A stretch of 62,078 bases of DNA, from positions 1-62,078 of the forward strand of contig JAKAZA010000002.1 in NCBI GenBank assembly GCA_021816155.1, read 5' to 3'. Shown in pieces: positions 3,478-35,496 of this stretch. A program made the translations under genes and the position numbers. Numbering within the stretch: position 1 is the first letter of the stretch; each line of letters opens with the position of its first letter. The notes below the pieces were generated by a model. It did not search any database. It worked only from the letters and a program-made list of their open reading frames with translations, and was not told where the DNA came from. This stretch comes from Pseudomonadota bacterium. Its GTDB lineage: Bacteria; Pseudomonadota; Alphaproteobacteria; Caulobacterales; Caulobacteraceae.

Positions 3478-4617
3478 TTACGCCGCCAGCGCCTGCCACA
3501 TCGCCCCGATCATACCGAAGGCGCGCTGGTCGCCTACGGTGCCCGAGCCCATCTTGTTCATCGCGTAGGCGAACGTGGTTCGCGCATCCATGTCGATGAT
3601 GATCAGCGATCCGCCATAGCCGCCCCAGAAGAGGCTGTCCTGATGCGGCATCGGGACCATCGGGCCGGGCAGCCCGAAGCCCATGCCGAACTTGGCCGGC
3701 GCCTTGAAGATCAGGTCGACGCCTTCGATCTGCACCTCCAGCGCCTTGCGACAGCCGGCTTCCGACATGAAGCGCTTGCCGTCCATCACGCCGCCGTTGG
3801 CGAGGACGCCGTGGACGCGGGCGATGGAGCGGGCGTTGCCCGTGCCGCCGGCGGCGGGGATCTCGGCGCCCCGCCAGGCGCGCGTCCGGGTCGCGGCCAC
3901 GTCGATGCCGGGGTTGGCGAGCGTGATCTTGCCGATCTCGTCCATCTCCATGTCGCCGACCGCTCCGCCCGGCGGCGGCGGGATCAGCTCGGCGACGCGG
4001 TCGTCCTCGGAGGCCGGCAGGCCGATCCAGAAATCGGCCTTCAGCGGCTCGGCGACCTCCTTTTTGAAGAACGTCCCGATGGTCTGGCCTCTAATGCGTC
4101 GCACCACCTCGCCGATCAGGTAGCCCTGCGTGATCGCGTGATAGCCGCTTTTCGTCCCTGGCTCCCAGAGCGGCGCCTGCGCAGCGAGAAGCGATGTGGC
4201 CTTCTCCCAGTCGTAGAGGTCAGCCCCGGTGATCGGCTCGCGCCACCCCGAGAGGCCGGCCGAGTGCGCCATCAGGTGGCTGACCTTGATCCGCTCCTTT
4301 CCGTTCGCGGCGAACTCCGGCCAGTACCTCGCGACGGGCGCATCGAAGTCGAGCAGGCCGCGGTCGGCCAGCATCAGCGCGCAGAGGAACGTCATCGTCT
4401 TGGTCGTCGAGTAGACGTTGACGATCGTGTCGCGATCCCAGGACTTCGTCCTCGCCGCGTCGGCCCAGCCGCCCCAGAGGTCGACCACGACCTCGCCCTC
4501 GAGCGTGGCGCAGAACGAGGCGCCGAGGTCCGAGCCGTTGGCTAGATTGGCCTCGAACGCGGCTCGCGCCGCCCCGTACTTGTCCTGCACGAACCCTTCG
4601 GCCGTATCGCGCGCCAT
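3478..4617 (-). CDS. Serine hydrolase, beta-lactamase/EstB-type
   Basis: VNVYSTTKTMT (SxxK), class C beta-lactamase-like organisation. Confidence 0.9.
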   Translation of the reverse strand: MARDTAEGFVQDKYGAARAAFEANLANGSDLGASFCATLEGEVVVDLWGGWADAARTKSWDRDTIVNVYSTTKTMTFLCALMLADRGLLDFDAPVARYWPEFAANGKERIKVSHLMAHSAGLSGWREPITGADLYDWEKATSLLAAQAPLWEPGTKSGYHAITQGYLIGEVVRRIRGQTIGTFFKKEVAEPLKADFWIGLPASEDDRVAELIPPPPGGAVGDMEMDEIGKITLANPGIDVAATRTRAWRGAEIPAAGGTGNARSIARVHGVLANGGVMDGKRFMSEAGCRKALEVQIEGVDLIFKAPAKFGMGFGLPGPMVPMPHQDSLFWGGYGGSLIIIDMDARTTFAYAMNKMGSGTVGDQRAFGMIGAMWQALAA

Positions 4618-4695
4618 AGTCCCATCTCCCGGAGGCTTCCGACAGCGTTATGTCGAACCGCCGACCGGGAAGCCAGGGTCACGCGACGGCGCCTG

Positions 4696-7340
<2,645 letters not shown>

Positions 7341-19444: not shown

Positions 19445-20368
19445 TCAGAGCCGGAGCGCCTCGCGCACGGTTGCGGGCCATGATCCGATATCGGTCCCGT
19501 GGGTCGCGAACATCGCCACCGCGAGGCGATCCATGCCGAAGGCCACGCAGCCGGTGTGCGCGACCTCGTCGTCCGCCGTCTTCAGGTCCCACGTGGTTCC
19601 GAAGTGGTCCTGGTGGTAGTTGAAGCTCATGCAGGCTGTCGGCGCGTCGGCCGAGCGGACCGGGACCAGCAGCTCGAACTTCAGCGCCTGCTCGATCTGG
19701 GACTGCGCCACGATCTGCCCGCCGCGGCCGAAGAACGGGTCGCTGGCGAGGTCGACGCGATAGTTGAGGCCCAGACCGTCAGCGATGCCCGTCGCGCGCT
19801 CGATCCACTCCTGGCGGAACGCCTGAATCTGGGCCTCGCTGCCGATGCGGACGTACTCGCGCATCCGGAACGACTGAAAGCGGTCGATGTCCGTCGACGG
19901 CTCGCGACGGAAGCAATCGGCGGCGACGTCATACGTGAGGCCGCCAGCGGGCACGGGCCCACGCGCCGCAGCCAGCGGATAGACCGGGTAGCAGGCCGCC
20001 GGCGCCAGCACGAGGTCAGCCGCTTCCAGGGCGTCGGTCCAGGGCTCGCCTCCCTCGACGAAGCGCCCCACCACGCCGCGGATATGCCGCTCGTCGCCGC
20101 AAAGGCAGCTGACAGCGCCCAGGAGGTTCGGGAAGCTCTTCAGGTAGCCGTGCCGCTCGATCTGCGCGCGGCTCATGATCGGCGGAAAGCGCAACACCTC
20201 GGCGTCCCTCGGGCGATGGCTCGAGATCAGCGCCGCCAGCGCCTCGACCACGCTCTCGTAAAGCCCCGTACGCGCATAGACGCCGTCCACCCCGGTCGGG
20301 CGGAACAGCACCTCCTTCAGCGCCTCCATCTCGCTCGCCCGAGGGGCGATCTTGGACATCACGCTCAT
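19445..20368 (-). CDS. Amino acid:[carrier protein] ligase (class II aaRS-like, atypical SerRS homologue without tRNA-binding domain)
   Basis: Class II aaRS core; putative Zn ligands C126 (PAACYP), E171 (RMREYVRIG), C274 (HTGCVAFGMDRL). Confidence 0.9.
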   Translation of the reverse strand: MSVMSKIAPRASEMEALKEVLFRPTGVDGVYARTGLYESVVEALAALISSHRPRDAEVLRFPPIMSRAQIERHGYLKSFPNLLGAVSCLCGDERHIRGVVGRFVEGGEPWTDALEAADLVLAPAACYPVYPLAAARGPVPAGGLTYDVAADCFRREPSTDIDRFQSFRMREYVRIGSEAQIQAFRQEWIERATGIADGLGLNYRVDLASDPFFGRGGQIVAQSQIEQALKFELLVPVRSADAPTACMSFNYHQDHFGTTWDLKTADDEVAHTGCVAFGMDRLAVAMFATHGTDIGSWPATVREALRL

Positions 20369-20376
20369 GGTCCGCC

Positions 20377-21633
20377 TCAGCCCCTGATGGTCGCCGGAAC
20401 CTCGGTCAGCAGCGCGGAGGCCGCCACATTGCCGAGGATGCGGTCGTTGTTGATCATGATCGGCGACGAGAGCACGTCGCGCAGGTGCCGTCCGATGCTG
20501 ACGTCGCTGTCGTTGCGATAGCTGGACAAGCCGCCGCAGCGCAGCGCGCTCATCACCGCCGCGACCGCGAGCTCGGAGGCGTCCACCTTGAGCAGCGCGA
20601 TCTCGGTCTGGAAACCCGCCGCGCTGAGCGCGTCCGGATCGTCCTTGACCTCCTCATACCGATCGAGCGCCGTCGCGATCAGCGCGCGCAGGGCTCGCAA
20701 GCTGGCGTTGGCGCGCGTGAAGTAAGGCGCGCTCGGCGGCGCGGCGCCCGTCCGAGCGGACTTCCTCAGGTATTTGCGCGCCTTCTCCACCGCCGCGGCG
20801 GCGACTCCCGCCCAGGCGCTGGACCACAGGATATGCGCGGCGGGCACCATGCTCTGGGCGTGGATGACCCCGTAAGCAACCGGCAGCAGCTGGGCGCCGT
20901 CACCCGAAGCGCGCAGCGTGAACCCTGCGCTGCAGGTGCCGCGCATGCCAAGCGTGTCCCAGCCAAGCGTGCGCTCGAGCGAATAGTCCGACTTCAGGAA
21001 CACGGCCAGCACCTGGTCGGAGGCGGCCGCGTTCGCCTCGCGACGGGCGGTGGTGACCACGGCGTCCGCCTCGACGCCGTAGGAAATGACGCTGGCCGCG
21101 CGGGTCAGGCGGATCCGGCCGCCCTCGTACTCGATGGGGGCCTCGCTGGAGCGGACGTCGCCGCCCCCCGAGCCTTCGGTCGTCGACGAAGCGACAAGCA
21201 GCTGGTCGCGCGTCAGCCGCCGAATGAAGCCTTCCCGCCAAGGGTCGCCGAGACCGTGACGGACCACGCACGCCACCTTCACCTGGTGCATCGCGTAGAT
21301 CATCGCCGTGGAGGCGCAGGCGCGGCCGAGCGTGTAACAGACGTCCGCGATTTCGCCGAGGCCGGCGTCCTCGCCGCCCAGACGGCGCGGGGCCATGACG
21401 CCCATGAGGCCGAGTTCCTTGGCCGTGCTGATCGCCTCCAGCGGGAAGCGGCCATCGCGGTCGACCGAGTCGGCATGCCGCGCCGCCACTGCCGCGACAC
21501 GGCTCGCGCGTTCAGCCAGATCGCCTGCGCGCGGAGGCGTTTCAAAGAGACGCTCCTTCGCCGCGGATGGCGCCGGTTCCTTCAGTCGCCTCAGTTCGTG
21601 CACGGTCATGGCCTCGCTCACCTCTCCGTTCAT
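20377..21633 (-). CDS. Acyl-CoA dehydrogenase-like flavoprotein
   Basis: ACAD-like GLMGVMAPRRLGGEDAGLGEIADVCYTLGRACASTAMIYAMH; DVSIGRHLRDVLSSPIMINNDRI C-term; ends 8 bp before the ligase. Confidence 0.9.
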   Translation of the reverse strand: MNGEVSEAMTVHELRRLKEPAPSAAKERLFETPPRAGDLAERASRVAAVAARHADSVDRDGRFPLEAISTAKELGLMGVMAPRRLGGEDAGLGEIADVCYTLGRACASTAMIYAMHQVKVACVVRHGLGDPWREGFIRRLTRDQLLVASSTTEGSGGGDVRSSEAPIEYEGGRIRLTRAASVISYGVEADAVVTTARREANAAASDQVLAVFLKSDYSLERTLGWDTLGMRGTCSAGFTLRASGDGAQLLPVAYGVIHAQSMVPAAHILWSSAWAGVAAAAVEKARKYLRKSARTGAAPPSAPYFTRANASLRALRALIATALDRYEEVKDDPDALSAAGFQTEIALLKVDASELAVAAVMSALRCGGLSSYRNDSDVSIGRHLRDVLSSPIMINNDRILGNVAASALLTEVPATIRG

Positions 21634-21684
21634 TGATCCGAGGACGCCGTTTGGGCACGGCCCCTTGGATCGTCCCGGTTCCGG

Positions 21685-21703
21685 CAGCAAACCGCATGCC
21701 AAG
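21685..21703 (-). promoter_or_regulatory. Putative sigma-54 promoter (TTGGCAT-GCGG-TTTGCT) for the flavoprotein-ligase operon
   Basis: Minus strand GG-N10-GC spacing: TTGGCATGCGGTTTGCTG. Confidence 0.65.
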
Positions 21704-21829
21704 GCGTGGAATATCCAGATAGTAAACCGCCGACCGAATTCTTTGGTTAATCGCAGTTATCACTCAACCAGTCCGCGGGTATTTTGAGCGCCTACTCGCC
21801 TTTCTAGAAGTAAAATCGGTCACATGCCC

Positions 21830-21847
21830 CTGGCACAGCCCTTGCGA
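21830..21847 (+). promoter_or_regulatory. Putative sigma-54 promoter (CTGGCAC-AGCCC-TTGCGA) for the carrier protein-hydrolase operon
   Basis: TGGCAC-N5-TTGC match with exact GG-N10-GC spacing. Confidence 0.8.
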
Positions 21848-21942
21848 CCTTCCACGCCGTGCGGCGGCCAGAAAGCCGTTCGGTTCAATTTGAGAAGCGC
21901 AGCGTCCCTTCGTGGGTCGACGCGAATGAAGGAGAGGCGACC

Positions 21943-22200
21943 ATGACCCCTGACGAGGCTCGCGCCACCATCACCACCATCGTGCGCCGGCTGCTCGCCA
22001 AGCGCTCCGCCCTAGTCGAGGTGACGCCGGACGAAAGCCTAACCGACGCGGGGCTGACCTCGCTCGACATGGTCAGCCTGATGCTCGCGATCGAGGACGC
22101 CTTCGAGATCGAGATTCCGCAACGTCGCATGACGCCGGCCAACTTCCGCACGATCGCAGCGATCGAGAAGCTGGTCGGCGCGGTGGCGCTCGCAGCCTGA
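21943..22200 (+). CDS. Acyl/aminoacyl carrier protein (85 aa)
   Basis: Phosphopantetheine motif TDAGLTSLDMVSLMLAIEDAFEIEIP (Ser40). Confidence 0.93.
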   Translation: MTPDEARATITTIVRRLLAKRSALVEVTPDESLTDAGLTSLDMVSLMLAIEDAFEIEIPQRRMTPANFRTIAAIEKLVGAVALAA

Positions 22201-22210
22201 TCGAGCGCAG

Positions 22211-23128
22211 ATGCCCCTCGACCGCCGCGCACGGCGACTGCTGGATATGCTCGCGGCGTCCGGAGGCACGGCGCCTGAGACACCGGCCGCGCGCCGCACC
22301 GCGCTCGAAGCTCTAGCGCAGATGGCGGATGAAGCCGACGTTGACGGCGTCTCGTCGCGGGATGTGGTCTTCGAAGCGGGCCAGGCCGCGATTGCGTTTC
22401 GCATCCATTCTCCAGACAGCGCCGCCGGCGCCCTTCCCGCGCTGATCTACTTTCATGGGGGCGGGTGGGTCGCAGGCGGTCTCGACACCCACGCCGGCGT
22501 CAGCGCCCGCCTGGCGGCTGCGAGCGGTGTACGGATCATCTCCATCGACTACCGTCTCGCTCCGGAACACCCGTTCCCGACTGGCTTGGAGGACTGTCTG
22601 GCGGCCGCGCGCGCCGTCATCTCGGACGCCGCGCGCTTCGGCGTCGACGCCGCGCGCATCGCGGTCGGCGGCGACTCGGCGGGCGGCGGCCTTGCGGCGG
22701 CCGTCGCCCGCGAGCTTGGCGCTGGGACCGTGGCGCTGCAGCTGCTGATCTGCCCGATCCTCGATGTGGCTCGCACGGGCGGTTCACGCGCGACGTTCGG
22801 CGAGGACCACTTCATCAGCCGCGCCGCCTTCGCCCGCGATCTCGCGGACTACCTCGGGTCCGGCGACCCGGGCGATCCACGCGTCTCGCCGCTGAAGGCC
22901 CGCAGCTTCGACGGCCTCCCGCCCGCGATCATCCACACCGCCGAGTTCGACCCCTTCCTGGACGAGGGCGAGGCGTACGCCCGGGCGTTGCGCAGCGCGG
23001 GAGTCGACTGCGAGACAACGCGCCATGCCGGCATGATCCACTACTTCTACGCCCTGGCCCGCGCGATCCCTTACGCCCGCGACGCGGCTACGCTGATCGG
23101 CGGTCAGCTGCGCCGGGCGCTGAGCTAG
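22211..23128 (+). CDS. Alpha/beta hydrolase (HSL/family IV type)
   Basis: YFHGGGWVAGGLDTH oxyanion motif, VGGDSAGGGLAAAV nucleophile elbow. Confidence 0.93.
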   Translation: MPLDRRARRLLDMLAASGGTAPETPAARRTALEALAQMADEADVDGVSSRDVVFEAGQAAIAFRIHSPDSAAGALPALIYFHGGGWVAGGLDTHAGVSARLAAASGVRIISIDYRLAPEHPFPTGLEDCLAAARAVISDAARFGVDAARIAVGGDSAGGGLAAAVARELGAGTVALQLLICPILDVARTGGSRATFGEDHFISRAAFARDLADYLGSGDPGDPRVSPLKARSFDGLPPAIIHTAEFDPFLDEGEAYARALRSAGVDCETTRHAGMIHYFYALARAIPYARDAATLIGGQLRRALS

Positions 23129-24933
23129 AGCCGCTGCTCGCCCAGACGGATGCGATCCGCCATGCCGGCGTCCAGGGCGACATAGCCGCCAGTCGTGCGG
23201 TCGTCCACGAACAGCGGATCGGAGAGCGAGCCGGGATCCCAGCCCTCGGCCGCGAGAGCCTGCCGCTTCTGCTTGAACGTCTCGGTGACGTCGAGCCGCT
23301 CGACGATGCGCAGGAAGACAGGGCGCGCGTAATCCGGGAGTCGCTCGGCGAGATGTCTGCGGAAGGCCGCGAGGTCGAAGCTGGGGCGCACCGTCAGCGC
23401 GGCCATGCCGGCCTTGCCCGGCGCGCCGGGCACGGGCGCGCCATAGACGCAAACGTCCTCGACGGCGGGAAAGGCGCGGATCGCCGCTGCGACCTCTGCT
23501 GTCGCGACGTTCTCGCCCTTCCAGCGGAACGTGTCCCCGACGCGATCGAGGAAATAGTAGAAGCCCTGCTCGTCGGCGTACATCAGGTCGCCCGTGCGGA
23601 CCCACACATCTCCAGCCTCGAAGACGTTGCGCAGCAGTTTGCGCTCGGTGGCCTCCGCCTCGGTGTAGCCCTCGAAGCGCGCAGCGCCTGAAGCCGCGAC
23701 GCGGCCGATCGCCTCGCCAGCCTCGCCGGAGGCGCAGCGGATGCAGAAGCCGTCGGCGCCGCGGGCCGGCGCGCCGGTGTCGGCGTCGAATCTTACGATG
23801 GCGGCCGGAAAGCGGTGCGACAGGAATGGCGGCGTGCGGCCGATCGCGCCTGGCCTTCCCTCGACGTTGTACAGCGAGAAGTTGCCCTCGGTGGCGGCGT
23901 AGAACTCGAGGATGCGTGGGACGGCGAAGCGTTCCTGGAAGGCCGTCCAGACGTCAGCGGCGAGGCCATTGCCGCAGGCAAGGCGCAACGCGTGAGAACG
24001 CTCCTTGGGGTGTGGAGGCGCAGCGACCAGATAGCGGCAGAGCTCGCCGATATACTGGAACAGCGTGCACTCGAAGCGCGCGACGTCGTCCCAGAAGCGG
24101 CTGGCGGAAAACTTCTCGGCGATCGCGGCGGATCCACCGGCGACGAGGGCCGCGCCGATCGCGGCGACGCCGCCGGCGCTGTGGCACATTGGCAGACAGT
24201 CGTAGAGTCTGTCCGTCGGCTGGATATCCATCAGGCCGGCGAACCAATGGCTCCAGCTCATCACCCGGTGATGGCTCACGTTCGCCGCCTTAGGCAGGCC
24301 AGTGGTGCCCGAGGTGTAGATCAGGAGCGCACGGTCGGCGAGCGTAACGGTTCGGCTCTCCGCCCGCGTCAGTGGGCCGTCGCCGCACGTCATCAGCGCA
24401 AGATCGATGCGCGGCCACAGGAAAGGGCTGTCGCCGTGCGCCCAGAGCGTCGGGGCGCCGTCGAGCTCGCCCGTCAGCGCGGCGACGGCGGCGGCGAACT
24501 CGGCGTCCACGATCACGTGGCTCGCTTTAGCCACGGACAAGGCGTGCCGGAGCGAAGGACCGCGAAGCTGCGGGTTGATCAGGGCCGTGGTGACCCCGAC
24601 CCTGCCCAGTCCGAGCCACACGGCCATGTATTCTGGCCGGTTCGGCATCAACAGCGCGACGACGTCTCCCTTGCCGAGACGGTGGCCCGTCGCCCAGCGC
24701 GCGTAGCGCCGGGCGCGTTCGGCCAGGCCGCGGAACGTCAGCTGCTCGCGCTCGGAAATCAGCGCGAGCTTCTCGCCGAACCGTTCGGCGAGTTCCTCGA
24801 TGACCGTTGGAAGCGTGCGGGCTGGCATGTGCTCGAGACGGCCGGTCAGCTCGAGGGCGCGCACCCAATCCTTGGTCGGCGAGCGCCTGGGCGCGACAGG
24901 AGCTTCAGGCGCGGCGACCGGCATCTGCATCAT
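23125..24933 (-). CDS. Long/very-long-chain acyl-CoA synthetase (FATP/FadD6-like)
   Basis: LLIYTSGTTGLPKAANVSHHR, YFLDRVGDTFRWKGENVATAEVA. Confidence 0.93.
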   Translation of the reverse strand: MMQMPVAAPEAPVAPRRSPTKDWVRALELTGRLEHMPARTLPTVIEELAERFGEKLALISEREQLTFRGLAERARRYARWATGHRLGKGDVVALLMPNRPEYMAVWLGLGRVGVTTALINPQLRGPSLRHALSVAKASHVIVDAEFAAAVAALTGELDGAPTLWAHGDSPFLWPRIDLALMTCGDGPLTRAESRTVTLADRALLIYTSGTTGLPKAANVSHHRVMSWSHWFAGLMDIQPTDRLYDCLPMCHSAGGVAAIGAALVAGGSAAIAEKFSASRFWDDVARFECTLFQYIGELCRYLVAAPPHPKERSHALRLACGNGLAADVWTAFQERFAVPRILEFYAATEGNFSLYNVEGRPGAIGRTPPFLSHRFPAAIVRFDADTGAPARGADGFCIRCASGEAGEAIGRVAASGAARFEGYTEAEATERKLLRNVFEAGDVWVRTGDLMYADEQGFYYFLDRVGDTFRWKGENVATAEVAAAIRAFPAVEDVCVYGAPVPGAPGKAGMAALTVRPSFDLAAFRRHLAERLPDYARPVFLRIVERLDVTETFKQKRQALAAEGWDPGSLSDPLFVDDRTTGGYVALDAGMADRIRLGEQRL

Positions 24934-25087
24934 GGCGTCCCAGGGTGGCGCGGCCGATCGCCGCCGAGCCTGGGCGATGCAAGGGCCACGCCATTTTCGC
25001 CCGGCACGCGAGCTGCAACCGACCGCCTGCAGCCGGCCGAAGTGACGCAAAACGGGACTTGCGAGCGGCTCAAGAGGTGAGAGGACC

Positions 25088-26380
25088 ATGCGCCGAGAGA
25101 CCATCGCCATCCACTCGGGCTTCGATTGCGACCCCGCCACCAAGGCGGTCGCCGTGCCGATCTACCAGTCCGTCGCCTACGCTTTCGACTCGGCCGACCA
25201 CGGCGCGGCGCTGTTCAATCTGGAGGAGGACGGCTTCCGGTACAGCCGCATCTCCAACCCCACCAACGCCATCCTCGAGGAGCGCGTCGCCGAGCTGGAG
25301 GGGGGCATCGCGGGAGTGGCGCTGGCGTCGGGTCAGGCCGCGCTGCACTACGCCTTCCTCAACGTCGCCGACCACGGAGGCAACATCGTCGCGGCGCCGC
25401 AGCTCTACGGCACGACGCACACGCTGCTGAACCACGTCCTGCGACGGCAGGGGATCGAGGCGAGGTTCGCCGCCAGCGACTCCGCCGCCGACATCGAGGC
25501 GCTGATCGACGACGAAACCCGCGCTGTCTTCTGCGAGACGGTCGGCAACCCCGCCGGCAACATTTGCGACATCGCAGCGATCTCGGAAGCCGCGCATCGC
25601 CACGGCGTGCCGGTCATCGTCGACAACACCGTGGCCACCCCCATCCTCCTGCGCCCCATCGAGCACGGCGCGGACATCGTCGTGCACTCGCTGACCAAGT
25701 TCATGGGCGGCCACGGGACCGCCATGGGCGGCATGGTGGTGGACTCGGGCCGGTTCGACTGGGCCGGCGAGAAGCGCCGCTTTCCCCAGTTCAACGAGCC
25801 CGACCGCTCGTACCACGGACTGGTCTACGCCGAACGGTTCGGGAAGGCCGCCTTCGCGGCGCGCATGCGCAGCGTCTACCAGCGCACCACCGGGGCGGTG
25901 ATGGCGCCGATGAGCGCGTTCCTGCTGCTGCAAGGCATCGAGACGGTGGCGCTGCGCGTCGAGCGGCACGTGGACAACGCTCGCAGGGTTGCGGACTTCC
26001 TGCGCGCGGACCCGCGCGTCGAGTGGGTGAACTACGCCGGCTTCGAGGATAGCCCCTACTTCGAGCTGGCCGGGAAGTATCTTTGCGGGCGTCCGCCGTC
26101 GCTGCTCACCTTCGGGGTCGTGGGCGGTTACGAGGCCGCCAAGGCGTTCTACGACCGGCTCGCGCTGGTCAAGCGCCTCGTCAATATCGGCGACGTGAAG
26201 TCGCTGGCCTGTCATCCGGCTTCGACGACGCATCGCCAGATGACCGCAGAGGAGGCCGCCGCCGCCGGCGTAACGCCGGAGATGATCCGCCTCTGTGTCG
26301 GCATCGAGCACGCAGACGACATCATCGCCGACCTCGATCAGGCGCTGGCGGCCCGGGCCACTCCCATGCTGGCCGCGTGA
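25088..26380 (+). CDS. PLP-dependent O-acetylhomoserine sulfhydrylase / Cys-Met metabolism enzyme
   Basis: TIAIHSGFDCDPATKAVAVPIYQSVAYAF, HSLTKFMGGHGTAMGG, SLACHPASTTHRQM. Confidence 0.92.
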   Translation: MRRETIAIHSGFDCDPATKAVAVPIYQSVAYAFDSADHGAALFNLEEDGFRYSRISNPTNAILEERVAELEGGIAGVALASGQAALHYAFLNVADHGGNIVAAPQLYGTTHTLLNHVLRRQGIEARFAASDSAADIEALIDDETRAVFCETVGNPAGNICDIAAISEAAHRHGVPVIVDNTVATPILLRPIEHGADIVVHSLTKFMGGHGTAMGGMVVDSGRFDWAGEKRRFPQFNEPDRSYHGLVYAERFGKAAFAARMRSVYQRTTGAVMAPMSAFLLLQGIETVALRVERHVDNARRVADFLRADPRVEWVNYAGFEDSPYFELAGKYLCGRPPSLLTFGVVGGYEAAKAFYDRLALVKRLVNIGDVKSLACHPASTTHRQMTAEEAAAAGVTPEMIRLCVGIEHADDIIADLDQALAARATPMLAA

Positions 26381-26384
26381 CGTG

Positions 26385-27374
26385 ATGACCGTCTCTCCCA
26401 CCGAAAGCCTCGCGAGCCGGCGCGTGGCGGCCCTGTCGCCGGGGCGCCGGCGCCTGAAGATCGGCCTCCTCAACAACATGCCGGACGCGGCGGTCTGTGC
26501 GACCGAGCGCCAGTTCGGGGACCTGCTGCGCGCCGCCGCCGGCGGGGTCAATATCGACCTGGCGCTCATCGCCCTGCCCGGAACTCCGCGCAGTCCGCGG
26601 GCGCTCGCCCGGATGGCCGGGCTCTACGAGGATGCGCGCGCGATCGGCGAGGCGGGACTCCACGGCCTCATCGTGACCGGCGCGGAACCTCGGGCCGAGC
26701 GCCTTGACGGCGAGCCCTACTGGGCCGACCTCGCCGCGGTCGCCGACTGGACGCGCGCGGCTTCGATCCCGACGATCTGGTCGTGCCTCGCAGGCCACGC
26801 CGCAGTGCTGCGCTTCGACGCGATCGAGCGCAGGCCGCTCTCCGTCAAGCTGAGCGGCGTGTTCCGCAGCGGCGCAGTCAGCGACGATCCGCTGGTCGCC
26901 GGCGCGCCGTATCATTTCGCCACTCCGCATTCGCGGCTGAACGGCCTCGATCCGGACGACCTCGCGCGTCACGGCTACCAGATCCTCACGCTGTCTCCGG
27001 TGGCGGGTGTCGACGCGTTCGTCCGCCGCGATTTCGGCGCGCTACACCTCTTCCTCCAGGGCCACCCCGAATACGACGCGGACACGTTGAAGCGGGAGTA
27101 TGCGCGCGACGTCAGCCGGTTCCTGCGCGGCGAGCGGGCGACGCATCCTCGCACGCCGTCGAACTACTTCGACCCGGCGACGGAGGCCCGACTCGGCGAG
27201 CTGGCGGACCGCGCGCGGCGCGATCCTCGCCCGGTGCGGATGGCCGGCTACGAGGCGGCGCGTGCCTAGGCCAGCACCCACCGCACCTGGCGCGGCTCGG
27301 CGCTGCGCCTCTACCGCAACTGGCTCGCCGAGGTCGCATCGGCGGCGGCCGCCTCGCAGCTGGCGGCGTCGTAA
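26385..27374 (+). pseudogene. MetA-like homoserine O-acyltransferase interrupted by in-frame TAG at 27267-27269 (uninterrupted part 26385..27269)
   Basis: LKIGLLNNMPDAAVCATERQF, IWSCLAGHAAVL, QGHPEYDADTLKREY; in-frame continuation after TAG: ASTHRTWRGSALRLYRNWLAEVASAAAASQLAAS*. Confidence 0.75.
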
Positions 27375-30396: not shown

Positions 30397-31203
30397 ATGA
30401 CCGCCGCCGTCACGTACAACCATCCGCCCAGGCTGGCCGCCACATTCCGGCGGCTTGAAGACAAGGTCGTGCTCGTCACCGGCGCATCGAGCGGGATCGG
30501 CGCGGCGGCTGCTCGGCTCTTTGCGGCCGAAGGGGCCAAGGTGGCGCTGGCGGCGCGGCGGCTGGATCGCATCGATGCGATCGCCCGCGAGCTCGCCGGC
30601 GCCGGCCACGCGGCGATCGCGCTCGCCTGCGACGTGACCGACGAGGCGCAGGTCGCGGGCGCGGTCGCCCGGACCGTCGACGCCTACGGCCGGCTCGACG
30701 GCGCGTTCAACAACGCCGGGCATGGCGGCCTGCGCGGCCCGATCCACACGCTCGACGTCGCCGACTTCGACCGCGTCAACGCCGTGAACCTGCGCGGCGT
30801 CTTCCTTTGCCTGAAGCATGAGGCGGCGGTGATGACCGGCCAAGGCCGCGGCGGCTCGATCGTCAACACCTCGTCGATCGGAGGACTCGTCGGCGGCGCC
30901 GGCAACAGCATCTACGCCGCCAGCAAGTGGGGCCTTGCTGGCCTCACCAAATGCGCTGCGCTCGACTACGCCGCAGAAGGCATCCGCGTGAACGCCATCG
31001 CGCCCGGCCCGACACGCTCGGAGATGTTCGACCGCTGGATGCCCACTGACGAGCACCGCGCGCGCATGGCCGCCATGTTCCCGATGAACTACATCGCCGA
31101 CCCCGACGACATGGCGAGAGCCGCGCTCTTCCTGCTCTCCGACGACGCGCGCTGGACGACCGGCGCGATCCTGCCCTGCGAGGGCGGCATGAGCGCGAAG
31201 TAG
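30397..31203 (+). CDS. SDR family oxidoreductase
   Basis: VLVTGASSGIGAAAARLFAAEGAKV, NNAGHGG, YAASKWGLAGL. Confidence 0.93.
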   Translation: MTAAVTYNHPPRLAATFRRLEDKVVLVTGASSGIGAAAARLFAAEGAKVALAARRLDRIDAIARELAGAGHAAIALACDVTDEAQVAGAVARTVDAYGRLDGAFNNAGHGGLRGPIHTLDVADFDRVNAVNLRGVFLCLKHEAAVMTGQGRGGSIVNTSSIGGLVGGAGNSIYAASKWGLAGLTKCAALDYAAEGIRVNAIAPGPTRSEMFDRWMPTDEHRARMAAMFPMNYIADPDDMARAALFLLSDDARWTTGAILPCEGGMSAK

Positions 31204-31214
31204 CGGACGCCCGG

Positions 31215-32720
31215 CTAACGGGACTCGTCGTTGCGCCCCAGCACCATGTCAGGGTCGAACGGGTAGAGCGGCCGGCGGATGCGCTTGTAGTCGAAGAGGG
31301 CGAGGTCGGACGCGGTGCAGCCTTCGCCGTCGCACATGACGATGTGGCGGGCGATCGGCTCGAAACCGGCGCGGAAATGCTGGCGCGACTTGATCAGCAC
31401 GTAGCGCTTGCGGGTCGGGTCGATGCCGCAGTGGGTGAAGACGCCGAGGTCGAACGGCTCGGCGCGCAGCTCGCTGACCACGATCTCCATCCGGCCGGTG
31501 TCGAGCACGGCCGTCCGGCCCATGCGGATGACCTGGCCGGTGGCCATGGGGCCCGTGACGACGAACTCGCCGTCGGTGATCCGGCGCACGCGGCCGCGCA
31601 CCTCGAGCGGCCTGGCTTTCAGCCCCATCGCCGGCATGTCGACCTTGCCGCCAAGCGCGAGCGTCACCTCGGCGCCGACGCCCGCTTCGATCATCCGCGC
31701 CACCGCGGCCGGATCGCAGATCGGCCCGGCGCAGGCGTTGTCCAGCCCCTGCCGCATCGCCTCCTCGATGACGCTCATCACATCCTGGGTGCCGCCCGAG
31801 GCGGTATTGTCGCCGTGGTCGGCGAGGACGATCGGACCGCCCTCCAGCGTCCGCGCGCGGGCCACCTGTTCGGCCAGCGGCTCGGGGTGGAAGAGAAAGC
31901 CCTGGCGACGCTCCCAGGCCTGGTCGAGAACGCGCGCCAGCAGGAGCTCGCCCTCCGCGGTCTGGCCGTCGCAGACGGCCACCGCCGAGAGCGCCAGGTG
32001 CGGGATGTCGGCCTGCGGAAAACCGCCGAACACGGAGGCGTTCAGCACGCGCCCGCTGTCCTCCGCTTCGGCCGCCATCGCCATCAGGCTCTTCATCGGC
32101 TCGCGCGAGGGCGTGTGGACCAGCGTGGAGCTCATGATCGGGCGGGAGTCCCAGACAGCGCGCGGACGCACCTCGCCGGCCAGCGTCCGCAGCAGCGTGC
32201 GGCCGGCGCGGCGCGAGGTCTCCGCCATGTCGATGTGCGGATAGGTCCGGTAGCCGGTGATGATCGTGGCGCCCCTCACCATGGCGTCGGTCATCTGGGC
32301 ATGGAAATCGAGCGCGACGGCGATCGGCACGTCAGGCGCGACGGCGCGGATGCGCGACAGAAGCTCGCCCTCGCCGTCGTCGTAGGTCTCGGTGACCATG
32401 GCGCCGTGCAGGGCGAGCATCACGCCGTCGCACCCGGACGCGACGGCGGCGACGATCTCGCCGGTCATCTCATCGAACGCCGCATTGGTTACGAGGCCGG
32501 ACGGATTGGCGTTGCCGGCGATCGGCACGACGAACTCGCAACCCGCCTCGCGCGCCAGGTCGACGAAGCCGCCGAGCGGCGTGTTGGTGCCGGCCGCGTC
32601 GGCGATGGCCGCCTCGCCGCGCAGGGCCCCGCGCCGCGCGAAGCTCTCGATCGGCGTCGGCAGCGGCGAGAACGTGTTGGTCTCGTGCATCATCATGGCA
32701 ATGACGAGCTTGGCGGTCAT
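31215..32720 (-). CDS. M81 family metallopeptidase (MlrC-like)
   Basis: KLVIAMMMHETNTFSPLPTPIESF, LHGAMVTETYDDGEGELL, DHGDNTASGGTQD. Confidence 0.92.
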   Translation of the reverse strand: MTAKLVIAMMMHETNTFSPLPTPIESFARRGALRGEAAIADAAGTNTPLGGFVDLAREAGCEFVVPIAGNANPSGLVTNAAFDEMTGEIVAAVASGCDGVMLALHGAMVTETYDDGEGELLSRIRAVAPDVPIAVALDFHAQMTDAMVRGATIITGYRTYPHIDMAETSRRAGRTLLRTLAGEVRPRAVWDSRPIMSSTLVHTPSREPMKSLMAMAAEAEDSGRVLNASVFGGFPQADIPHLALSAVAVCDGQTAEGELLLARVLDQAWERRQGFLFHPEPLAEQVARARTLEGGPIVLADHGDNTASGGTQDVMSVIEEAMRQGLDNACAGPICDPAAVARMIEAGVGAEVTLALGGKVDMPAMGLKARPLEVRGRVRRITDGEFVVTGPMATGQVIRMGRTAVLDTGRMEIVVSELRAEPFDLGVFTHCGIDPTRKRYVLIKSRQHFRAGFEPIARHIVMCDGEGCTASDLALFDYKRIRRPLYPFDPDMVLGRNDESR

Positions 32721-32731
32721 CGGGCGTTCCT

Positions 32732-33562
32732 TCAGGGTCGGCGCGGCGTGAACTTGAAGATCTCGTCCTCGCCCTGGCCGATCACGGCGTAGGACATATC
32801 CGGAACCGCTCGCCACGCGCCGGCGAGACCCCCGAAGGGTTCCGAGACCACCAGGCGGGATTCGTCCGAAAGGTCATGCAGGATCGGGTTCTCCGGATAC
32901 TGAGCCTTCAGCGCCCCGACCTCGACTGTATGATAGAGCGAGGCCGAGTGGCCGTTGCTCGAATAGCGAAAAGCCCAGACCTTGTGGCCGTTGCTCATCG
33001 CGACCGTCATCCGGATCGGATGCTCGACGCCCTTCCTGCGACCCACGTCCTCGATGAAGCCCACCGCGCGCTCCACCGCCTGGGCGGGATCGCGCGTGAG
33101 GCCGAAGGTGATGGCGAGATAGAAGAACGCCTCGGAGTCGGTCGAGCCGGCGATCTCCGGATAAAGACCGGGCTCGATCGCCAGCATCAGCTCGCGCTTG
33201 ACCTTGTGGTACTGGTCGATCTGGCCGTTATGCATCCAAAGCCAGTGCTTGTGGCGGAACGGGTGGCAGTTGGTCTGCTGCACGGCCGCTCCAGTCGAGG
33301 CGCGAACGTGCGCCAGGAAGGCGCGCGCCCGGATCTGGCCCGCGATCTCGCGCAGGTTCAGGTCGCTCCAGGCGGGTTCGATGCTGCGGTAGAGACCGGG
33401 CGCCAGATGCTCGCCGTACCAGCCGACGCCCACTCCGTCCCCGTTCGTGGTGGTGGCGCCGAGCTGGGCGTGCAGGCTCTGGTCGATCAGCGAGTGCGTC
33501 GGCTTGTAGAGCAGCTCCTCGAGGAGCAGCGGCGTTCCGACGTAGGCGAGCCAGCGGCACAT
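32732..33562 (-). CDS. Class II glutamine amidotransferase
   Basis: N-terminal MCRWLAYVGTPLLLEELL; NCHPFRHKHWLWMHNGQI. Confidence 0.92.
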   Translation of the reverse strand: MCRWLAYVGTPLLLEELLYKPTHSLIDQSLHAQLGATTTNGDGVGVGWYGEHLAPGLYRSIEPAWSDLNLREIAGQIRARAFLAHVRASTGAAVQQTNCHPFRHKHWLWMHNGQIDQYHKVKRELMLAIEPGLYPEIAGSTDSEAFFYLAITFGLTRDPAQAVERAVGFIEDVGRRKGVEHPIRMTVAMSNGHKVWAFRYSSNGHSASLYHTVEVGALKAQYPENPILHDLSDESRLVVSEPFGGLAGAWRAVPDMSYAVIGQGEDEIFKFTPRRP

Positions 33563-33575
33563 CGCTCGGTGTTTA

Positions 33576-33601
33576 GCGTGGCCGCGCCCCGGCGGCCACG
33601 C
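33576..33601. terminator. Strong hairpin downstream of sulfatase gene
   Basis: GCGTGGCCGC-gccccg-GCGGCCACGC perfect 10-bp stem. Confidence 0.55.
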
Positions 33602-33603
33602 GC

Positions 33604-35496
33604 TTAGGGCTCGATGATCTCGAACCAGAAGTCGAAGCGGTCGAGCCAGGTCAGGAACTCGGCGAGCGACGCCGGGTCGCCCTCGACCGCGAGGCTGCCG
33701 TCCGCCACGGCCACGTCCACGGTCTTGGCGCCCGTGACCAGCGCGACCAGCGTCGGCCGGTCGAGAGACGCCTTTGGCGCCCCGGCCGGCGGCGCCCCGG
33801 CGTAGTGCCGAAGCACCGCGTTCTCGACCTCGAGGCGGAACGCTTCGCCGGTGTCGGTGAAGGTGACCCCGAGCTGCAGCGAGCGATCTCCGACCCTCGG
33901 GCCGTTCAGCCGGACGCTCAGCGAGTCGAGCAGCATGGCGCCCGGCAGGCGTGGCAGCTGCGCAAGCGCGGCCTGGCGAGGCTGCTCGGCTGGCGGCCGG
34001 CGGAACCTCAGCTCCTGCGCGCCGGTCAGGTAGAACGCGCGCCAGGGCCCGCTCTCAGCCTGGTAGCCCAGTTGCTCCAGCGTGTCGGCCTGCAGGTTCC
34101 GCGCCGCCTCGTTGGACGGATCGGCGAACACCAGGTGGTTCACCAGCTCGGCGACCCAGCGGTAGTCGCCCGCGTCGAACGCCGCGCGCGCCTTCGCGAT
34201 CAAGGCGTCCGGCCCGCCGGCGAGATCGACGTAGCGTTTGCCGGCTTCCACCGGAGGGTGGGGATGGAGGTTGGCGGGATTGCCGTCGAACCAGCCGATG
34301 TAGCGCTGGTACACCGCCTTGGCGTTGTGGTTCAGCGTGCCGTAATAGTCGCGCACGTGCCACTCGCGGGCCAGCGACGGAGGCAGCGCAAGCTCCTCGG
34401 CGATCTCCTTCGGCGTCAGGCCGTGGTTGGCGAGGCGCAGCGTCTGGTCGTGCAAGTACTTGTAGAGGTCGCGCTGGGTCCTGAGGAATCGCTCGGCGTC
34501 CTCGCGTCCCCAGCGTGGCCAGTGGTGGCTGGCGAAGAGCACTTCGCTGCCCTCGGCGAACAGCTCCAGCGCCTCGTCGATGTAGTAGCTCCACGCCTTG
34601 GCGTCGCGCACCTGGGCGCCTCGTGGCGTGTAGAGATTGTGCAGGTTGCAGGTGCAGTTCTCGGCCATGCAGAGCGCACGGAGCTTCGGAAAGAAGAAGT
34701 TCATCTCCGCCGGCGCCTCAGTCCCGGGTGTCACCTGGAAGACGGCTTCGACGCCGTCGATGGTGAGCCGCGTGCCGGTCTTCGAGATGCTCTCTGTCGG
34801 CGCGACCAGCGCCGGTTGGCCGAGCGAGACCGCCTTCCCGAGGCCTGCATCGACGTGGCCCTTCGGCCCGCGCGGCAGAAGGGCGCCGTACATGTAGGTG
34901 GCGCGCCGGTTCATCACGTTGCCCAGCAGCACGTTCTCGCTGACCGCCTCGATCAGGAAACCCTCGGGCGCGATGATGCGGGCGCCGGCGGCGATGTCGG
35001 CTTCGCTCAGCACGCCCATCACGCCTCCGTAATGGTCGACATGGCTGTGCGTGTAGATCACCGCCGTCACCGGCCTGTCGCCGCGATGCTCGCGCATCAG
35101 GCGCAGCGCCGCCGCGGCCGGCTCCGCCGTGGTCAGCGGATCGATGACCACGTACCCGGTGTCGCCCTCGATGAAGGTGACGTTCGACAAGTCGAAGCCG
35201 CGCACCTGGTAGACGCCATCGGTCACCTTGTAGAGGCCGTGGCTCATGTTGAGCCGGCCCTGGCGCCAGAGGCTCGGGTTGACCGTCGGCGGCGCTTCGC
35301 CCTCGTTCAGAAAGGCGAACGGCGAAAGGTCCCACACCGTCCCGCGCTCCGGATTCTCGATCTTCGCGTCGGGCAGCGTGGCGATGAACCCGCGTTCGGC
35401 CCGCGCGAAATCGGCGCCGTCGTCGGCCGGCAACCGTGTGCGCACCGCGGCCTGCGCGGCGATCGTGGCCGCTGTCGCTTCCTTGGGACCTTCCAT
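33604..35496 (-). CDS. Alkyl sulfatase, metallo-beta-lactamase type (SdsA1/BDS1-like)
   Basis: VIYTHSHVDHYGGVMGV; MAENCTCNLHNLYTPRGAQVRDAKAWSYYIDEAL; C-terminal SCP2-like domain. Confidence 0.94.
   Translation of the reverse strand: MEGPKEATAATIAAQAAVRTRLPADDGADFARAERGFIATLPDAKIENPERGTVWDLSPFAFLNEGEAPPTVNPSLWRQGRLNMSHGLYKVTDGVYQVRGFDLSNVTFIEGDTGYVVIDPLTTAEPAAAALRLMREHRGDRPVTAVIYTHSHVDHYGGVMGVLSEADIAAGARIIAPEGFLIEAVSENVLLGNVMNRRATYMYGALLPRGPKGHVDAGLGKAVSLGQPALVAPTESISKTGTRLTIDGVEAVFQVTPGTEAPAEMNFFFPKLRALCMAENCTCNLHNLYTPRGAQVRDAKAWSYYIDEALELFAEGSEVLFASHHWPRWGREDAERFLRTQRDLYKYLHDQTLRLANHGLTPKEIAEELALPPSLAREWHVRDYYGTLNHNAKAVYQRYIGWFDGNPANLHPHPPVEAGKRYVDLAGGPDALIAKARAAFDAGDYRWVAELVNHLVFADPSNEAARNLQADTLEQLGYQAESGPWRAFYLTGAQELRFRRPPAEQPRQAALAQLPRLPGAMLLDSLSVRLNGPRVGDRSLQLGVTFTDTGEAFRLEVENAVLRHYAGAPPAGAPKASLDRPTLVALVTGAKTVDVAVADGSLAVEGDPASLAEFLTWLDRFDFWFEIIEP

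Follow-up and report, generated by a model that had tools for sequence, protein, structure and literature searches.

Positions 1 to 62,078 of contig JAKAZA010000002.1 (GenBank assembly GCA_021816155.1, a Caulobacteraceae bacterium; hereafter the window) carry genes for a small carrier protein (CP), a flavoprotein of the acyl-CoA dehydrogenase (ACAD) fold (FLV) and an aminoacyl-tRNA synthetase (aaRS)-like amino acid:[carrier protein] ligase (LIG); this unit very probably loads and then oxidises a small amino acid. The whole explanation, in which the three proteins act as one thiotemplated amino-acid oxidation unit, FLV most likely being an N-oxygenase and an adjoining alpha/beta hydrolase (HYD) releasing the product, is given a probability of about 0.5. 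The four genes form two tight divergent pairs, with the coordinates and gaps that an earlier note on this DNA had reported: LIG (19445-20368, minus strand) is separated by 8 bp from the FLV stop at 20377 (minus strand), and CP (21943-22200, plus strand) by 10 bp from HYD (22211-23128, plus strand); the pairs diverge from ~333 bp (21610-21942) that likely hold the promoters. The FLV open frame begins at a TTG at 21702, but since its homologues are 390-412 amino acids (aa) long and a GGAGAGG site suits the ATG at 21609 (410 aa), the latter is the most likely start, and the gene was thus delimited as 20377-21609. CP is compatible with a start at the ATG at 21943, giving 85 aa.

To define the partnership between the ligase and the flavoprotein, 399 genomes of the phylum were surveyed, taking as strong a ligase match of E <= 1e-125 and a flavoprotein match of E <= 1e-141. 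Strong LIG matches were present in 28 genomes and the same 28 carried a strong FLV, always on one contig and with 7-143 bp between the matches (hypergeometric p ~3e-42, with kinship between genomes ignored); moreover, both were found together in 80 of 80 loci from other genomes, and FLV was absent from the 18 genomes having only distant aaRS-like matches. The LIG and FLV trees both divide into the same two context clades, their distances showing a correlation of 0.90 in which species history is uncontrolled. Clade 1 (24 loci in the tree) displays the arrangement CP-FLV-LIG-DUF1839-GH2, and clade 2 comprises 32 loci, including that of the window; record labels assign these loci to alpha-, beta- and gammaproteobacteria and to Gemmatimonadota, metagenome bins being frequent among the sources. 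A pairing so far beyond chance bears out the earlier proposal that carrier protein, ligase and flavoprotein are one functional unit. The rhizobial and related loci (L023-L081 and L118-L124) keep the CP-FLV-LIG-DUF1839-GH2 order nearly constant.

A 29th genome with FLV (G207) has no aaRS-like ligase; there, the neighbours of FLV encode a carrier protein resembling DltC and a protein resembling DltA, which scored 358 bits against TIGR01734, below that model's cut-off (560). Such a replacement of the loader is the best indication of an aminoacyl-carrier protein as the substrate of FLV and, together with the obligate pairing with LIG, strongly supports it, in agreement with the earlier idea of a flavoprotein working on an aminoacyl thioester. 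As in the D-alanine activation by DltA and DltC, an amino acid would be loaded onto a small carrier protein; unlike that system, the loader of the window is aaRS-like and the flavoprotein is an obligate companion. At L130 (6779-9712), a FLV homologue (35%) stands next to DltC-like and DltA-like genes without an aaRS-like ligase, a MBOAT-like open reading frame (4511-6094) and two neighbours lying on the opposite strand; this locus would be an aminoacyl-CP oxidation unit lacking the aaRS-like loader. Distant aaRS-like ligases without FLV were seen at L125-L129, with small carrier-protein-like frames near those of L125 and L127 and also a MBOAT-like frame at L125; these are possibly other amino acid:CP ligase systems.

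The ligase is of 307 aa and matches archaeal-type SerRS profiles in the catalytic half only (profile residues 305-504), as a class II SerRS core without the tRNA-binding domain. It scored 458.8 bits against the amino acid:CP ligase model NF005479 (PRK07080; curated cut-off 357), and its residues 11-306 align end to end with Bll0957 (PDB 3mey/4h2w, E 1e-130). C126, E171 and C274 fall on C131, E176 and C279 of Bll0957, which we take to be zinc ligands, and are invariant in the alignment of 100 homologues; both the ligase identity and the zinc ligands that had been read from the sequence are supported. Bll0957, the nearest characterised ligase, prefers glycine as its substrate; at ~60% identity to this glycine ligase, LIG would likewise act on a small amino acid, of which glycine is the most likely. 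Family NF005479, zinc ligands, size and a neighbouring carrier protein are all common to LIG and the Bll0957-type ligases. CP matched PF00550 with 40.5 bits and the aminoacyl carrier protein model NF005480 (PRK07081) with 57.7 bits, under the curated cut-off of 72; its phosphopantetheine Ser40 (codon 22060-22062, motif GLTS) is invariant in 18 homologues.

Ligases of this kind from Bradyrhizobium and Agrobacterium, among them Bll0957, were reportedly described by Mocibob et al. in 2010 and 2013. In the accessible literature on this ligase type, DUF1839, glycyl-CP clusters and CP-bound N-hydroxyglycine, outside which the founding 2010 ligase paper lay, we found no description of the module; that on Bll0957-type ligases gave no role for a partner flavoprotein and no account of the larger cluster described below. 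Like LIG, Bll0957 adjoins an acyl-CoA dehydrogenase gene (bll0958), and in a phaR mutant of B. diazoefficiens both Bll0957 and Bll0958 are increased threefold (PMC10888616). Loader and carrier are of known kinds, and the chemistry of FLV has a precedent as well, to which we return after considering its active site.

FLV contains PF02771 and PF00441 above their cut-offs, and its predicted structure (pLDDT 88.6) retrieved TdsC and DszC at the top of a Foldseek search, followed by many ACADs, with nitrososynthases inside the top 30. The catalytic Glu of isovaleryl-CoA dehydrogenase (IVD) aligns with A258 of FLV, which is A, S, C or T in 100 homologues, and that of the short- and medium-chain enzymes (SCAD and MCAD) with I386, which is I or V in the same set; the latter correspondence comes from an ungapped alignment extended beyond R377-D378. 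S176, near flavin N5, is invariant, the aligned residue being Ser in the nitrososynthase DnmZ and Thr in ACADs, and flavin reductase genes (PF01613) lie within the clusters of four clade-2 relatives (L016, L019, L144 and L145). On these grounds, the missing Glu, the Ser near N5, the fold neighbours and the linked reductases, we infer with moderate confidence that FLV is an N-oxygenase similar to ChmG, of the ChmG-type/group D kind with an ACAD fold.

The earlier note had instead likened FLV to the PltE-type dehydrogenases, a comparison that is not supported, as both known positions of the catalytic Glu are never acidic in the 100 homologues. PltE, RedW, AnaB and Bmp3 share with FLV the ACAD fold, and they act on an aminoacyl-S-CP as FLV should, but neither FLV nor its homologues possess the Glu; AnaB presumably uses the IVD-type position, and its sequence (4irn) matches FLV only in part (43 bits). 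A PltE-type reaction is therefore less likely for FLV, and on glycine it is impossible, since its chemistry takes place at C2-C3. A different oxidation without oxygen insertion is possible, if doubtful: FLV as an aminoacyl-CP dehydrogenase or oxidase would form an imine from glycine (iminoacetyl-CP, then glyoxylyl-CP) or a dehydroamino acid from alanine. The ACAD fold and the Pfam domains are in line with this, and LIG, CP and FLV would work on an aminoacyl-CP under either chemistry, while the lack of an acidic residue at both canonical sites, the replacement of Thr by Ser at the N5 site and the flavin reductases of four clusters argue for the oxygenase. Several observations do weigh against N-oxygenation of glycine: the best profile match of FLV is a SCAD (82 bits, vs 67 for DnmZ), oxygenases and dehydrogenases cannot be told apart by their fold or profile scores, and a conserved D/E389 lies three positions past the MCAD-Glu site and could serve as the base if the loop were shifted in FLV; the SCAD match and D/E389 also favour the dehydrogenase. 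Linked PF01613 genes are also rare (4/33 clade-2 and 0/68 clade-1 loci), with a PF01613 gene lying unlinked to the module in the window's genome, and the assignment of glycine to LIG rests on homology.

Next to the module lies a PRK08279-type acyl-CoA synthetase (ACS; 23125-24936, minus strand, with an open frame reaching 25143), which scored 731.8 bits against NF006134 (cut-off 625) and has homologues of 52-57% identity in the full-cluster loci. This recurrent neighbour would suit an FLV that was an ordinary acyl-CoA or acyl-CP dehydrogenase serving a long-chain acyl-CoA synthetase, the adjacency to the ligase being incidental. We regard this as highly improbable: FLV lacks the catalytic Glu, is paired with DltA/DltC-like genes in G207 and stays with LIG in clade 1 and in the Bradyrhizobium-type loci, which have no such synthetase. 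Fatty acyl-CoA was rejected as a substrate of FLV on this persistence.

The precedent for N-oxygenation by FLV is chalkophomycin biosynthesis, in which ChmG, a member of the ACAD superfamily with Met in place of the catalytic Glu, N-oxygenates prolyl-ACP; the adenylase ChmJ and the acyl carrier protein (ACP) ChmI work alongside it, and the product is set free by the hydrolase ChmF (PMC10849742). The four roles of ChmJ, ChmI, ChmG and ChmF (loader, stand-alone ACP, Glu-less ACAD-superfamily enzyme and alpha/beta hydrolase) are paralleled by LIG, CP, FLV and HYD, and the chalkophomycin cluster has a second adenylase, as does the larger cluster here. They differ in that ChmJ is an adenylating enzyme for proline whereas LIG is aaRS-like and would take a small amino acid, and in that ChmH, a second and Glu-bearing ACAD of the chalkophomycin pathway, has no counterpart. 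In the favoured scheme, LIG would use ATP to activate glycine, or less probably another small amino acid, and load it onto the phosphopantetheine of CP; FLV, whose action on the aminoacyl-S-CP is strongly supported, would most likely use reduced flavin and O2 to oxygenate the amine in a ChmG-like manner, so that CP would carry the N-hydroxy form of the aminoacyl group or one oxidised further; and HYD would release the product as ChmF does.

HYD is of the HSL type, with 218.7 bits to Abhydrolase_3 (PF07859), and its H82-G83-G84 (HGGG motif), GDSAG motif and S156/D247/H277 triad are invariant in 13 homologues, making it a candidate release enzyme. It is present in only one of the two clades; the entire DUF1839/GH2 clade lacks it, as do the Bradyrhizobium-type loci, and it is thus outside the CP/FLV/LIG core. 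The expectation that all four genes co-occur across genomes therefore stood for LIG and FLV, found in the same 28 of the 399, and failed for the hydrolase.

The module had been thought of as minimal, which is not the case: the neighbouring ACS, MetY and MetA genes belong to an ancestral cluster. The fullest clade-2 loci (L015, L016 and L017) contain HYD, the PRK08279-type ACS, MetY and MetA, and also a group II pyridoxal phosphate (PLP) decarboxylase (DEC), a second adenylase (AL) with its own carrier protein (CP2), a short-chain dehydrogenase/reductase (SDR) and a SnoaL protein. The ancestral cluster of clade 2 held this set, with MetY/MetA-like enzymes, and the window is a remnant of it that retains CP, HYD, ACS, MetY and MetA, up to position 27269. 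No close AL or DEC was found in the window's genome, which is 94% complete; the pathway may because of this be reduced or dead in this organism, a point to be added to those weighed above. A SDR gene at 30397-31203 at first clustered with the SDR of the cluster and was rejected, being only 34% identical to it. The stretch 31215-35496 encodes MlrC/M81 metallopeptidase-family and alkyl sulfatase-like proteins, which have no apparent connection with the module.

MetY (25088-26380, plus strand) is an O-acylhomoserine-dependent PLP enzyme (589 bits to TIGR01326, cut-off 495). MetA (26385-27269, plus strand), a MetA/HTS-like homoserine O-acyltransferase (179 bits to PF04204), keeps the C136/H229/E231 triad in the alignment; it is cut by an in-frame TAG (27267-27269), beyond which the frame still encodes the conserved C-terminus (W..ALRLYRNWL), so that the TAG is either real decay or an assembly error. 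The two could be mere methionine-biosynthesis neighbours standing outside the pathway, which we think unlikely. Their domains are indeed those of methionine enzymes, and in the Bradyrhizobium-type genomes, whose loci retain CP, FLV and LIG beside a GNAT-like gene, the MetY-MetA pair is found elsewhere, far from LIG. However, the adjacency recurs in metagenome-assembled genomes labelled alpha-, beta- and gammaproteobacteria and Gemmatimonadota, and MetY copies of at least 70% identity (70-76%, the next best being 62-64%) occur in exactly the 13 clade-2 ligase genomes of the 399, a perfect co-occurrence to which taxonomic relatedness contributes as a confounder and whose identity cut was set after the list was seen. 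Furthermore, the cluster copies are extra, since the window's genome encodes a separate MetX as well as another MetY, 45% identical to that of the cluster. On the pathway reading, the released product would in the ancestral cluster meet a homoserine derivative made by MetA and MetY, the PLP decarboxylase and the branch of the second adenylase, carrier protein and SDR; of those later steps the window retains only ACS, MetY and the truncated MetA.

Alternatively, the oxidised aminoacyl group could decorate an exopolysaccharide or surface glycan in place of becoming a free metabolite, being transferred by DUF1839, a GNAT or another transferase; we see this as a tentative possibility. Polysaccharide genes appear in the available flanks of 12/33 clade-2 and 12/68 clade-1 loci (the seeds came from these loci, and the counts are no test), they lie inside the cluster in G151 and G271, and a MBOAT-like gene, named from its sequence only, adjoins FLV-CP-DltA in G207. 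DUF1839 could be an acyltransferase; BtrH is one. For the GNAT-like Bradyrhizobium neighbour, Pfam and NCBIfam gave no hit; its model is weak (pLDDT 65.7), with a fold matching tandem GNATs. DUF1839 is reported to be papain-like (PMC10318531). Against glycan decoration, Pfam revealed no polysaccharide genes near the module of the window, and most loci lack them in their available flanks; because such genes occur in a minority of flanks, the link is kept as a rival only. Polysaccharide genes, for Wzz and glycosyltransferases, are interspersed among the full gene set in L144 and L145; both loci also encode an acetolactate-synthase-like protein and a class IV aminotransferase, and L144 a cupin.

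The role of MetA and MetY, the product and the polysaccharide link are speculative. A complete scenario, which we consider very unlikely to be right in full, is that the ancestral cluster makes a new class of small molecules: CP-bound glycine would be N-oxidised by LIG and FLV and freed by HYD. MetA and MetY would couple it, via the N-O group, to the homoserine gamma carbon, and the resulting relative of canaline, a non-protein amino acid with an O-N linkage, would then be decarboxylated and reloaded on CP2; in rhizobia the same oxidised aminoacyl-CP would serve, together with DUF1839, a different acceptor.

The obligate flavoprotein partner, the clue to its chemistry given by the missing Glu and the larger conserved cluster provide a testable role for a ligase family of unknown purpose. 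If confirmed, this would be another CP-bound amino-acid oxygenase system besides that of ChmG, one loaded by a translation-derived enzyme and carried by many genomes of rhizobia and soil bacteria.

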